38,924 bases of DNA from Paludibacteraceae bacterium (lineage in GTDB: Bacteria; Bacteroidota; Bacteroidia; Bacteroidales; Paludibacteraceae): the NCBI GenBank assembly GCA_017387515.1, contig JAFOFC010000005.1, positions 1 through 38,924 on the forward strand, written 5' to 3'. Position numbers and translations under genes: made by a program. Positions within the stretch are counted from its first letter, which is position 1. Every line of letters begins with the position of its first letter. Positions 34,384 to 38,570 of the stretch are shown here, one piece after another. Below the pieces are notes generated by a model, which saw only the letters and a program-made list of their open reading frames with translations, searched no databases and had not been told where the DNA came from.

Positions 34384-34384
34384 A

Positions 34385-34402
34385 ATCCCCAAAAATGGGG
34401 AT
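34385..34402. promoter_or_regulatory. 18-bp palindromic operator, copy 1
   Basis: ATCCCCAAAAATGGGGAT is a near-perfect inverted repeat. With the flanking A and T it forms two 8-bp arms around AAAA. It lies directly upstream of the -7 box of the diiron regulator gene, centred about 45 bp before the start codon. A closely related site lies at 35375-35392. Arm spacing fits a homodimeric LuxR/NarL-type helix-turn-helix. Binding by the neighbouring regulator is inferred. Confidence 0.7.
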
Positions 34403-34424
34403 TGCTAATCCGTTCTTTTTGTAG

Positions 34425-34432
34425 TACTTTTG
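34425..34432 (+). promoter_or_regulatory. -7 box TACTTTTG of the diiron regulator gene
   Basis: TACTTTTG matches TAnnTTTG and ends 6 nt before the ATG at 34439, so transcription should start at or within a few bases of the start codon. A possible -33 ATTG (34401-34404) overlaps the right edge of the palindromic operator. Confidence 0.6.
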
Positions 34433-34438
34433 CCCACC

Positions 34439-35365
34439 ATGTTGTTTACTAAAGAACTAAAAATTGCAGACATTGTAGAGCAAGATTTTAAGCAAGTGTT
34501 GCTCTTAGAACATTTGGGTATTCCCTTTATTGTTAAAGAGAAAACCGTAGAAAAAATATGTCAAGAATACAACATTAACCCCAATTTATACCTGCATTTT
34601 GCCAGTTTATTTGCCAACCAAATTCCTAGCCAAATTCCCCATTACAACAGCAACGACATTAAGTGCATGGTTAGGTACCTTCAAAACAGCCACCATTATT
34701 ACCTTAACGAGCGTGCCGCTAAAATAGTAAGGATTGTAACACAAATAGCCGAAGAAACCAACTGTGCAGGCATCCATTTGCTAAATGACTTTGTACAAAA
34801 TTACATTGAAGAGGTAAAAAAGCACTTTGATTACGAAAACAACATTGTATTTCCCTACATGATTGCTATGGCCAATAACGAGCCCAACATAGGCAACTAT
34901 AGCATAGCCGAATACAAACAACACCACGACAACATTGACGACAAATTAGCCGACCTTAAAGGACTGCTTATTAAATACCTGCCCTTTGATGATAACGAAA
35001 ACCACCTTAGGCGCAAACTACTGCATTGCTTGTTCGATTTAGAGCAAGATTTAAAGATTCACACGTTAATAGAAGACACGGTACTCATTCCTTTGGTAGA
35101 AAACTTTGAAGGGAAAGAGAACATTGAAACCACTCCTACCATAAGCGAAGAAAAGAAAGCGAACATCGAATTAACAGAAAGAGAGATAGACGTACTTCGC
35201 CTATTACTAGAAGGCTATTCCAACAAGGAGGTAGCCGACAAACTACACATCAGCACCCATACGGTTATTTCGCACCGCAAAAACATCACGGCCAAAACCA
35301 GCATCAAATCGTTGGCAGGTCTTACCATCTACGCCCTTCAAAATGGCATCATCGAGGTAAAATAA
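34439..35365 (+). CDS. YtfE/RIC-like diiron domain fused to LuxR-type HTH regulator
   Basis: This 308-residue protein has three parts. Residues 5-58 resemble the ScdA_N start of RIC proteins ('ADIVEQDFKQVLLLEHLGI') but lack the usual Cys pair. Residues about 75-225 carry a hemerythrin-like ligand set: H85 or H86, H129 with E133 ('HFDYENNIVF'), H162 or H163 ('QHHDNID') and H208 with E212 ('HTLIEDTVL'), in positions close to those known for YtfE. Residues 244-308 are a LuxR/NarL-type HTH ('LTEREIDVLRLLLEGYSNKE', 'ISTHTVISHRKNI'). It is therefore a one-component sensor that binds DNA and probably responds to NO, oxygen or iron. The ATG at 34439 is used. An upstream TTG overlaps the promoter. Confidence 0.9.
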   Translation: MLFTKELKIADIVEQDFKQVLLLEHLGIPFIVKEKTVEKICQEYNINPNLYLHFASLFANQIPSQIPHYNSNDIKCMVRYLQNSHHYYLNERAAKIVRIVTQIAEETNCAGIHLLNDFVQNYIEEVKKHFDYENNIVFPYMIAMANNEPNIGNYSIAEYKQHHDNIDDKLADLKGLLIKYLPFDDNENHLRRKLLHCLFDLEQDLKIHTLIEDTVLIPLVENFEGKENIETTPTISEEKKANIELTEREIDVLRLLLEGYSNKEVADKLHISTHTVISHRKNITAKTSIKSLAGLTIYALQNGIIEVK

Positions 35366-35374
35366 CCCCTCCGC

Positions 35375-35392
35375 ATCCCCATTTTTAGGGAT
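35375..35392. promoter_or_regulatory. 18-bp palindromic operator, copy 2
   Basis: ATCCCCATTTTTAGGGAT is, on the minus strand, ATCCCTAAAAATGGGGAT, which differs from the first operator at one base. It lies about 60 bp upstream of the -7 box of the small barrel gene. A further half-site-like TTTTTGGGATT sits at 35406-35416, in the -33 area. Confidence 0.65.
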
Positions 35393-35437
35393 AAAATTTC
35401 ATTTATTTTTGGGATTGTTACAAAAATAGTATAGTTC

Positions 35438-35445
35438 TACCTTTG
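35438..35445 (+). promoter_or_regulatory. -7 box TACCTTTG of the small barrel gene
   Basis: TACCTTTG matches TAnnTTTG, 38 nt before the ATG at 35484. ATTG at 35414-35417, with a 20-nt spacer, is a possible -33 box and overlaps the half-site TGGGATT, so a regulator bound there could block or aid polymerase. Confidence 0.65.
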
Positions 35446-35483: not shown

Positions 35484-36140
35484 ATGAAATTTAAATTACT
35501 CTTTTCCCTTTTATTTTGTGCACTGAGCGCAGCGCTATGGGCAAGCAACCCCTCTAAAGAAACCAACATGGGCGGCGAACTAGATGTTTACGTTACCTAC
35601 ACACCCGCAGAAGAAGTTACCTTATTTTTAGGCGAAGAACTTACTTTTGCCAACTTTTTAACCCCAGAAAACGGTTTGTTTGATGCTTGTAATACGGTTA
35701 TAGGAGCGGCTTACACACCACATCCTAACATCGCACTAGAAGCGGCCTACGAATTTTTATACGCCAACGCCACCTGCATGGAGCATGTACTAAAACTATC
35801 GGCCATGCCCCAAGTAAGTTTAGGCGATTTTTCGATATCACTCCAAGAAACAGGCCAAATGACGTACGCAGTACCCGAAAACGCCTATTTATGGCATTTA
35901 GTTTCTAAACTAACCCTAGCATATGCCATTCCAGAAACGCCTTTATCGCCCTATGCCTACGTCGAAATGACCAATCCATTAGAGGCTGCACCCGCATCTT
36001 GGTACGACGAATTATGCTACAGAGCAGGGCTAGATTGGGCTGTAAACGAACACAATACCTTGGGATTGTACTATGAATTCTCTCACACACCAGATAGTTA
36101 CTTTCACCTAATAGGCATTGGCTATACATTATCGTTCTAA
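35484..36140 (+). CDS. Small outer-membrane beta-barrel-like protein
   Basis: The 218-residue protein has a signal peptide (MKFKLLFSLLFCALSAALWA) and alternating strands with aromatic residues through to a C-terminal 'HLIGIGYTLSF', which resembles a barrel-targeting end (final Phe). An N-terminal motif 'ELDVYVTYTPAEEVTLFLGEEL' and 'LGLYYEFSHTPDSYFHLIGIGYTL' suggest an eight- to ten-stranded barrel of DUF2490-like type, which I cannot confirm. It lies between the diiron regulator and feoAB and has its own promoter with the palindromic operator. Its role is unknown; link to iron or redox response is inferred. Confidence 0.75.
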   Translation: MKFKLLFSLLFCALSAALWASNPSKETNMGGELDVYVTYTPAEEVTLFLGEELTFANFLTPENGLFDACNTVIGAAYTPHPNIALEAAYEFLYANATCMEHVLKLSAMPQVSLGDFSISLQETGQMTYAVPENAYLWHLVSKLTLAYAIPETPLSPYAYVEMTNPLEAAPASWYDELCYRAGLDWAVNEHNTLGLYYEFSHTPDSYFHLIGIGYTLSF

Positions 36141-36185: not shown

Positions 36186-38570
36186 ATGTATTTATCCGAC
36201 TTAAAAACAGGCGAAAACGCCATTATATCCAAAGTACATGGTACGGGAAAATTCCGCAAACGTATCATTGAGATGGGCTTTGTTAGAGGCCAAAAGGTAG
36301 AAGTTTTAATGGGAGCACCCCTTAAAGACCCCATTAACTACAAAGTAATGGACTACGAAGTTTCTTTACGAAGAAACGAAGCCGCCCTTATTGAGGTGGT
36401 AGGCATGAACCAGAAAGATGCCACCATCAAATCCGACCAATATAGTGCCATTCAAGACAACGACATCGTTACCATCGCCAAAAACAAAGGCAATACCATC
36501 AACATTGCCTTAGTAGGCAATCCCAACGCAGGAAAAACATCCCTTTTCAACATAGCATCGGGCAAGCACGAACATGTAGGCAACTACACTGGTGTAACGG
36601 TCGATGCCAAAGAGGGCAACATCGACTACAAAGGCTATCGGCTAAACATTTTTGATTTGCCTGGCACCTACTCGCTTACAGCCTATTCGCCCGAAGAGGT
36701 GTTTGTACGCAAACACATCATGGAACAAGACCCCGATATTATCATCAACGTAGTATCGGCATCTAACCTAGAAAGAAACCTATACCTTACCACCCAACTT
36801 ATCGACATGGACATACCCATGGTTATTGCCCTTAATATGTACGATGAGTTGGAAAAAAGCGGAGCAAAACTAAACTACCAAGAGCTTTCTAGCATGTTGG
36901 GTATGTCTATTGTGCCTACCCAAGCTAAAGACGGGTTTACTAAAGACAGCGGCATTACCGAACTATTCGATGCGGTAATTAGCACCTACGAAGGCACCAA
37001 CCCGGTGGTTAAACACATTCACATTAACCACGGCGGCGACCTACAAATCGCCATTAACCGCATCAACAAACTTATCAAACAATCAAGCGATTATAAAAAC
37101 CACTTTTCTAGCCGTTTCTTTGCCGTTAAATTATTAGAAAACGACAAAGGCGCCGAAGAGTTTGTAAAATCCTTGCCCAACGCAGCAGAAATCCTCGATT
37201 ACAAAAGCAAAATTGTCCCTCACATAGAAGAAGAACTAGACGAAGACTGCGAATCGGCCATCATCAATGCCAAATATGGCTTTATTAGCGGGGCCTTAAA
37301 CGAAACTTACACCGAGCCCAAACGCAAATCGTCTGGACTTACCAACATTCTAGACCCCATTGTTACTAATAAGTTTTTAGGGTATCCTATCTTTCTTTTA
37401 TTTATGTGGGTGATGTTTGAATGTACCTTTGTGCTGGGTGCATACCCACAAGATTGGCTAGATGCAGGCGTTGGTATGTTAAACGAATACCTTGCTAGTG
37501 TTATGCCACCGGGGCCACTAACCGATTTGCTACTGGATGGCATTATTAGCGGCGTAGGCGGTGTATTGGTTTTCTTGCCCAACATCCTTATTTTGTATTT
37601 CTTTATCTCGCTAATGGAAGACTCGGGCTACCTAGCCAGGGCTGCCTTTATCATGGATAAAATTATGCACCGCATGGGCTTGCATGGCAAATCGTTTGTA
37701 CCCATGCTAATGGGATTTGGTTGCAACGTACCTGCTATTATGGCCACTCGTACCCTAGAGAGCAAACACAGCCGCCTTATTACCATGCTGGTTATACCGT
37801 TTATGTCGTGTACCGCCCGCATACCGGTTTACATCATTTTTGCTAAAATATTCTTTCCTAATCACGCATCATGGGTAATGTTAGGATTGTATGTGCTAGG
37901 CATTCTAGTGGCGGTTGCATCGGCCAGAATTTTCAAGAAATTTTTAATAAAAGGCGACGAAACTCCTTTTGTTATGGAGCTACCTCCTTACCGTGTACCT
38001 ACCCTTAAATCGGCCATCCACCACATGTGGGAAAAATCGGTTCAATACCTTAAAAAAATGGGTACGCTTATTTTGTTTGCTTCTATCATTGTGTGGGCTT
38101 TGGGTTATTTCCCCATGGCACAAGACGAGAATACCACTGCCTCGCAGCAACTAGAGCAAAGTTACATTGGCCGCATAGGTAAATTCATCGAGCCTGTTAT
38201 TGAGCCCCTAGGTTACAACTGGAAAATGGGTGTGGGAATTGTAGCAGGATTACCAGCCAAAGAATTGGTAGTAAGTACTTTAAGTGTACTATACACCAAC
38301 TCCGAAGACGAAGCTACCGAAGAAAGCAACGCGTTAGCTACCGCCCTAAAACACGAAGTAAAAGCAAATGGCGAGCCCCTATATACCCCAGCCACCGTGC
38401 TATCGTACCTAGTATTTATCTTGCTTTGTTTTCCTTGCATTGCCACCATCATGGCCATTAAATCGGAATCGGGCAGCTGGCGTTGGGCACTGTTCTCTGC
38501 CGTTTACACCACAGGCGTGGCATGGATTATTGCCTTTGCTGTATATAAAATAGGGGGACTATTCTTATGA
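36186..38570 (+). CDS. feoB: Ferrous iron transporter FeoB with fused FeoA domain
   Basis: The 794-residue protein starts with a FeoA SH3-like domain (about 1-72, 'MYLSDLKTGENAIISKVHGT' to 'AALIEVVG'), followed by the FeoB G domain: G1 'GNPNAGKT' (111-118), G2 'GNYTGVTVD' (132-140), G3 'DLPG' (157-160) and G4 'NMYD' (217-220). The guanine-dissociation-inhibitor region and the membrane domain with Gate motifs follow ('FLPNILILYFFISLMEDSGYLARAAF', 'FGCNVPAIMATRTL'). It imports Fe2+ across the inner membrane. FeoA-FeoB fusions are typical of Bacteroidetes. Its stop overlaps the start of the small Cys-rich gene in ATGA, so they are translationally coupled. Confidence 0.97.
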   Translation: MYLSDLKTGENAIISKVHGTGKFRKRIIEMGFVRGQKVEVLMGAPLKDPINYKVMDYEVSLRRNEAALIEVVGMNQKDATIKSDQYSAIQDNDIVTIAKNKGNTINIALVGNPNAGKTSLFNIASGKHEHVGNYTGVTVDAKEGNIDYKGYRLNIFDLPGTYSLTAYSPEEVFVRKHIMEQDPDIIINVVSASNLERNLYLTTQLIDMDIPMVIALNMYDELEKSGAKLNYQELSSMLGMSIVPTQAKDGFTKDSGITELFDAVISTYEGTNPVVKHIHINHGGDLQIAINRINKLIKQSSDYKNHFSSRFFAVKLLENDKGAEEFVKSLPNAAEILDYKSKIVPHIEEELDEDCESAIINAKYGFISGALNETYTEPKRKSSGLTNILDPIVTNKFLGYPIFLLFMWVMFECTFVLGAYPQDWLDAGVGMLNEYLASVMPPGPLTDLLLDGIISGVGGVLVFLPNILILYFFISLMEDSGYLARAAFIMDKIMHRMGLHGKSFVPMLMGFGCNVPAIMATRTLESKHSRLITMLVIPFMSCTARIPVYIIFAKIFFPNHASWVMLGLYVLGILVAVASARIFKKFLIKGDETPFVMELPPYRVPTLKSAIHHMWEKSVQYLKKMGTLILFASIIVWALGYFPMAQDENTTASQQLEQSYIGRIGKFIEPVIEPLGYNWKMGVGIVAGLPAKELVVSTLSVLYTNSEDEATEESNALATALKHEVKANGEPLYTPATVLSYLVFILLCFPCIATIMAIKSESGSWRWALFSAVYTTGVAWIIAFAVYKIGGLFL

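Follow-up and report, generated by a model that had tools for sequence, protein, structure and literature searches.

The window analysed here, a 38,924-nucleotide stretch of DNA from a Paludibacteraceae gut bacterium (contig JAFOFC010000005.1), carries a gene (34439-35365, + strand) whose product joins a hemerythrin domain of the RIC type to a LuxR/NarL-type helix-turn-helix (HTH) in one chain of 308 amino acids (aa). We propose, with a probability of roughly 0.55 and from comparison of sequences, that this fusion reads iron status as a one-component regulator of the CdhR/hemerythrin type, in which a labile diiron centre would serve as the gauge and act on a 20-bp palindrome. Direct observations carry this proposal: the domain architecture, the invariance of the ligands, repeated fusion with loss of a receiver domain, linkage to feoB, and a candidate operator together with its distribution. 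The fused domain pair has already been published, as PIN17_RS10465 from Prevotella intermedia (PMC10434189); what the present analysis adds is the recurrence of the fusion, its link to feoB and the candidate operator.

The reading frame opens with an ATG at 34439 and runs uninterrupted to 35365, and stops interrupt the reverse strand of the same interval in the frame read. Residues 85-220 (34691-35098) form a hemerythrin-like four-helix domain (Pfam PF01814, 50.3 bits versus a cut-off of 25.3), and residues 245-299 (35171-35335) form a LuxR/NarL-type HTH (GerE, PF00196, 60.9 bits versus 23.5). The initial annotation, made from the sequence alone, had described a YtfE-like domain followed by such an HTH in a single 308-residue chain, and both domains indeed score above their cut-offs. 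The RIC family model TIGR03652 spans residues 9-218 (E 1.5e-16) and thus reaches into the N-terminal region (residues 1-58, 34439-34612), which aligns with the N-terminus of ScdA and other RIC proteins; at 60.8 bits the match lies below the family cut-off of 204.7. Pfam ScdA_N did not match the regulator at E<=1, nor did the Pfam scan of the fusion return the receiver that would mark a two-component response regulator. On structural comparison, VIA-align ranked RIC chains first for the fusion, and a Foldseek search of the whole fusion against the PDB gave nothing at E<=0.001, the best match being YtfE at 1.4e-3. Within its own draft genome (1.76 Mb, 86.85% complete), the regulator is the sole match found, whether the protein itself or the hemerythrin family is looked for. 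Its nearest named relative is from a Paludibacteraceae metagenome-assembled genome (locus L031, 98% identity); the protein at locus L006, from the same-genus genome G006, is identical to that at L032, whose contig is named Candidatus Enterocola.

The presumed iron ligands H85, H129, E133, H163, H208 and E212 are invariant in the alignment in 102 of 102 homologues, fused and split alike. The hemerythrin-like ligand set had been predicted beforehand, with lack of conservation named as what would overturn it, and it came through intact. Two positions left ambiguous at that stage are now settled, as H85 rather than H86 is the invariant first His and H163 is invariant; column 162, which lies outside the 102-homologue count, varies in the alignment. 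These residues would supply the six diiron ligands listed for RIC proteins (PMC9268430), although in the sequence alignment with YtfE of E. coli and ScdA of S. aureus the first His is offset by one residue, and its register is uncertain to that extent. Canonical hemerythrins, by published description, use five His, one Glu and one Asp; the regulator instead offers four invariant His and two Glu. It also lacks the N-terminal DfCCgG motif present in most bacterial RICs. Opposite the CC pair of ScdA the alignment places residues other than Cys, as the initial annotation had noted; C41 (34559-34561), which that annotation did not mention, lies elsewhere in the RIC-like N-terminal region and is invariant in all 102 homologues, whether fused or split. 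The disappearance of the pair may mark a change from repair to sensing, with one invariant Cys retained. The regulator differs from YtfE and ScdA in its score below the RIC cut-off, its missing CC motif and its HTH.

The same domain pair, which the initial annotation had proposed to look for across Bacteroidota, was gathered at 110 loci with the hemerythrin domain joined (85, fused) or adjacent (25, split) to a LuxR-type regulator, as in the CdhR type. In many other sampled genera and families the two parts are separate genes near each other; one locus counted as split, L024, has its LuxR gene before rather than after the hemerythrin gene. The idea that the fusion is unique was rejected, the fused form being common among the gathered Bacteroidales loci as well as already in print. 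A carefully built tree covered 58 hemerythrin domains, of which 36 were fused and 22 split; 5 rows with long branches and a further 39 fused ones were kept outside it. It joins the clade of the window's genus to 14 split rows (100/100), separate from the other fused clades. The fused/split label requires 4 changes on this tree, and the starred branches force all 4; a quick tree of 102 rows requires 6, of which starred branches force 3. A single origin, with all fused rows as one clade, was rejected (delta lnL 152, p 4e-37). On the 102-row tree, two loci labelled Delongbacteria and Ignavibacteria (L081 and L042) fall within clades of Bacteroidota rows, indicating either transfer or misbinned contigs.

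The split partner is a protein of ~200 aa whose model has a receiver fold (mean pLDDT 89.3), with ChrA, RcsB and VraR among its best structural matches. At the phospho-acceptor position, 24 partners carry N in 19 cases, D in 3 and S in 2; L024 is included in this count and was omitted from the receiver-model alignment of 23 rows. In the one partner scanned (L018), Pfam recognises GerE only, and the HTH is strongly conserved in both fused and split forms. The receiver is therefore degenerate in the split relatives and absent in the fusions. This receiver-like domain is found in split partners from either side of the tree, which makes separate genes the probable ancestral state; fusion accompanied by receiver loss has then probably recurred, with parsimony giving about four events. 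Such recurrence is good evidence for cooperation between the two split proteins. Sensing probably proceeds without a phosphorelay, which agrees with the earlier suggestion of switching without a histidine kinase. NarL/LuxR-type response regulators such as VraR, LiaR and ChrA share the HTH, and their receiver has a counterpart at the N-terminus of the split partner; unlike them, the fusion has no receiver, and only 3 of 24 split partners keep the phospho-acceptor Asp.

A 2023 paper (PMC10434189) describes hemerythrin-CdhR gene pairs in Porphyromonas gingivalis (PG1236-PG1237) and Bacteroides thetaiotaomicron (BT0519-BT0520), which rise on iron depletion 6.9-7.3-fold and 16-20-fold, respectively. 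The likeness to our loci lies in the described architecture: the same domain pair, adjacent or fused, in Bacteroidales and in an iron context. The window's fusion falls in a clade apart from the other fused clades of our tree, with the proteins of that paper compared by description. Its main text does not contain the words motif, promoter, palindrom or operator, and an operator may be described in the 2010 CdhR paper. Literature searches for hemerythrin with LuxR in P. gingivalis or Bacteroides found no paper, those for hemerythrin with feoB in Bacteroidetes found only PMC10434189, and those for a Bacteroidetes iron or LuxR motif found, judging by titles, none on such an operator; PMC13252398 names hemerythrin in a reference only. 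A hemerythrin-type input fused to another output is known from Bhr-DGC of V. cholerae (PMC10101095); the regulator differs from it in its DNA-binding output and in being of the RIC rather than the canonical hemerythrin type.

The iron context extends to the window itself. Downstream of the regulator lie a gene for a DUF2490-like protein (35484-36140, +; 28.5 bits in Pfam, just under the cut-off of 29.8), a possible outer-membrane barrel, and, 0.8 kb away, a gene for a FeoA-FeoB fusion (36186-38570, +; Pfam and family models), a ferrous iron transporter; no other FeoB_C match occurs in the draft genome, and its FeoB_N match far outscores any other there. Among 49 genomes having both, FeoB_C occurs within 5 kb of the hemerythrin match in 16, where genome sizes predict 0.22; hemerythrin places were hand-picked as matches reaching into the hemerythrin domain, and G013, where feoB runs to the contig end, was scored as not adjacent. 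In the window's own genus 9 of 13 genomes show the linkage, and outside it 7 of 36 still do (0.15 expected; Poisson p 2.6e-10, relatedness uncorrected). Among neighbour clusters, feoB is the most frequent (31 of 102 loci).

Upstream of the regulator we identified a candidate operator, AATCCCCAAAAATGGGGATT (34384-34403, unstranded), a perfect palindrome AATCCC-N8-GGGATT that is the sole zero-mismatch copy in the draft genome. Promoters of Bacteroidota have a -7 box TAnnTTTG and a TTG at -33. The right arm of the palindrome runs on as GGGATTG, 20 bases ahead of TAnnTTTG, so that the predicted regulator promoter (34398-34432, +) comprises GGGATTG at -33, N20 and TACTTTTG at -7 (34425-34432). The predicted promoter of the DUF2490-feoAB unit (35411-35445, +) is built in the same way, with GGGATTG at -33, N20 and TACCTTTG at -7, and a second operator-like palindrome with 2 mismatches (35374-35393, unstranded) lies upstream of that unit. 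The candidate operator, with the consensus AATNCC-N8-GGNATT(G), overlaps the -33 element of both promoters, and the pattern G.GATTG-N20-TAnnTTTG occurs without mismatch at these two places only in the genome. With 3 mismatches allowed, the palindrome alone occurs 22 times in the window against 13.86 expected, and 6 of 100 shuffles reach 22. Two further features of these promoters were seen. The predicted -7 box ends 6 bases ahead of the regulator ATG (34425-34439), a spacing identical in L031, and on this prediction the mRNA of the regulator may have little or no leader. An alternative left arm, TTTCAT, replaces AATNCC 8 bases ahead of GGGATTG in several sites, such as those in the window (35397-35410) and in L096, L172 and L163.

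The same arrangement recurs across loci. In 103 loci, G.GATTG-N20-TAnnTTTG gave 28 matches, compared with 0, 0, 0, 0, 0, 0, 1, 0, 0 and 0 in ten Markov controls and 0 in reversed loci. The spacing from GGGATTG to TAnnTTTG was 20 in 20 cases, while every other spacing from 0 to 60 occurred at most twice. Among 90 promoters of the form NNNNTTG-N20-TAnnTTTG, the TTG is preceded by GGGA in 20 (0.43 expected) and by GGTA in 10 (0.41 expected). A left arm with 4 of 5 letters of AATNCC stands at a gap of 8 in 12 cases, 9 in 7, 10 in 3 and 18 in 1. Even with the left arm unselected, about 48 of 54 sites have T at -12, with the adjacent majority letters mirroring the right arm; the exact left arm AATACC accompanies 4 of 10 GGTATT sites (L010, L023 and twice L035, with L010 and L035 close relatives). 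As for position, 21 of 30 GG[GT]A promoters lie before a hemerythrin gene, a DUF2490 gene or feoB, or within 2.3 kb before feoB, compared with 13 of the 53 other promoters. Beyond these loci, GGGATTG-N20-TAnnTTTG gave 44 matches in 30 of 60 relatives (2 in a backwards control), and with T required at -12 a set of 198 genomes of the order yielded 51 matches, spread over 44 genomes, against 5 control matches. The sites listed number 89, some places being doubled through overlapping loci; 44 have 4 or 5 of 5 left-arm letters, and many of the remainder lie in or before unrelated genes, as expected by chance.

At other places the candidate operator stands before genes for the regulator, FeoAB, porins, flavodoxin and TonB receptors. 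The genes that follow a site were read in the fetched loci only, and 29 of them, along with the split partner noted above, were run through Pfam. They include FeoAB (L206 and L171, the latter in a genome, G012, with its hemerythrin match on another contig), OprB porins (L217, L205, L183, L215, L005), TonB receptors (L213, L167, L227) and flavodoxin (L173, L172, L028). Further families are ZIP (L178), CDF (L034), an ArsP/HMA permease (L169), CbiX (L209), DUF454 (L180), DUF4395 (L175), TetR and ApbA (L174), GH125 (L163) and an alpha/beta hydrolase (L200). Matches were weak for L210 and L214, and no Pfam family was assigned to the downstream genes of L179, L212, L176 and L097.

In the mechanism we propose, the RIC-type domain would hold a labile diiron centre, and cytosolic iron would set how far that centre is occupied, or its oxidation state; the step from this domain to iron sensing is one we infer. 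The protein would act as a dimer and bind the palindrome AATNCC-N8-GGNATT(G) through its HTH. With the start site assumed from the -7 box, the operator would be centred near -42, overlapping the -33 element, a class-II geometry that is usual for LuxR-type HTH proteins. Given this placement, the simplest account is that the iron-poor form acts as a class-II activator, and the regulator is probably an activator at low iron, most likely of its own gene and of the DUF2490-feoAB unit.

Several findings weigh against this picture. A site overlapping -33 would suit a repressor too, and an iron-loaded repressor would produce an identical response to iron. No more than 30 of the 103 loci have a recognisable site (fused 20/79, split 10/24), and 10 of the 13 other promoters at hemerythrin, DUF2490 or feoB positions are site-less promoters of the same general form ahead of hemerythrin genes. 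In 33 of 49 genomes no feoB lies within 5 kb on the same contig. In the window's own genome, the promoter pattern at 1 mismatch gives 22 matches versus 10 in the control, and the palindrome alone at 2 mismatches is hardly enriched (61 versus 50), which makes it unusable as a genome-wide marker outside a promoter context. The gene hmuY, a known CdhR target, proved a weak test of the operator: 14 hmuY stretches from 9 genomes, with no chance control, held a single loose site immediately ahead of hmuY (L186) and another ahead of a gene that precedes hmuY (L187).

The distribution of sites bears on whether the GGGATTG promoter site is instead that of a different, Fur- or DtxR-like iron regulator, with the hemerythrin-LuxR gene as a regulon member only. 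A hemerythrin profile at E<=1e-20, which may take in other hemerythrin proteins, matched 136 of the same 198 genomes; the 62 without a match are those absent from the match list, with 42 genomes unprinted. Any site occurs in 37/136 genomes with a match versus 7/62 without (p 0.008), a site with left arm [CA][CA][CT] in 27/136 versus 2/62 (p 9.5e-4), and one with NC[CT] in 17/136 versus 2/62 (p 0.03), three left-arm criteria having been tried and chosen after the sites were seen and genome relatedness being uncorrected. Two good sites do stand in genomes without a hemerythrin match, one of them ahead of feoAB, as another regulator would allow. Yet the association with hemerythrin genomes, the perfect 20-bp palindrome directly ahead of the regulator gene itself, the class-II geometry suited to a LuxR-type HTH and the strong conservation of that HTH all make such a regulator distinctly improbable.

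The initial annotation had left the signal open between nitric oxide (NO), oxygen and iron. The linkage to feoB, the candidate operator before iron-acquisition genes and the published induction by iron depletion argue for iron status rather than NO, and no support for NO sensing was found in this analysis. A regulator switching genes under nitrosative stress would have the same ligand set as YtfE, which is reported to form an {FeNO} species when incubated with NO; however, none of the 29 Pfam-scanned downstream genes, a list covering part of the sites, belongs to a known NO-detoxification family, and together with the feoB linkage this leaves NO sensing very unlikely. An oxygen or redox sensor, reporting the oxidation state of the diiron centre as hemerythrin-domain sensors do, with iron genes merely adjusted by an anaerobe on oxygen exposure, is unlikely too, if less so: cdhR of P. 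gingivalis is reported to fall under microaerophilic conditions, and flavodoxin and metal efflux genes are among those after sites, but the published induction is by iron depletion, the ligands are of the RIC type with four His and two Glu rather than the canonical five-His set, and good sites are followed mostly by genes for metal uptake or envelope ports.

If the iron-status proposal holds, a bacterial group dominant in gut and mouth would control iron partly through a diiron sensor, instead of or beside Fur, and a short DNA site would let target genes be predicted. It can be tested directly, given the invariant diiron ligands, the recurrent fusions and a specific candidate operator with its list of candidate targets. 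We also entertain, tentatively and with the odds somewhat against it, an order-wide Bacteroidales circuit in which a former Fe-S-repair diiron protein gauges labile iron through a LuxR-type HTH at a 20-bp operator overlapping -33, controlling ferrous uptake, outer-membrane ports and flavodoxin, its genes having been fused about four times and the dead receiver discarded each time.

Three further observations concern the neighbourhood of these genes. A beta-barrel-type gene recurs near the regulator and feoB in an 11-locus cluster (L005, L010, L014, L018, L019, L053, L055, L068, L092, L094, L099); the recurring barrel genes differ in family, DUF2490-like in the window and OprB in the Pfam-scanned cluster members, and possibly serve as an outer-membrane port for iron. 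A neighbour cluster of 24 loci encodes a conserved HACCAPC-motif protein near the fused regulator (for example L063:6931-7668), and the 12 loci listed for it are all fused. Finally, in a genome with a genus-type fusion beside feoB (L008), locus L168 (G015:C108) contains the start of a second hemerythrin-type gene; it is of another type and is likewise preceded by a candidate operator.
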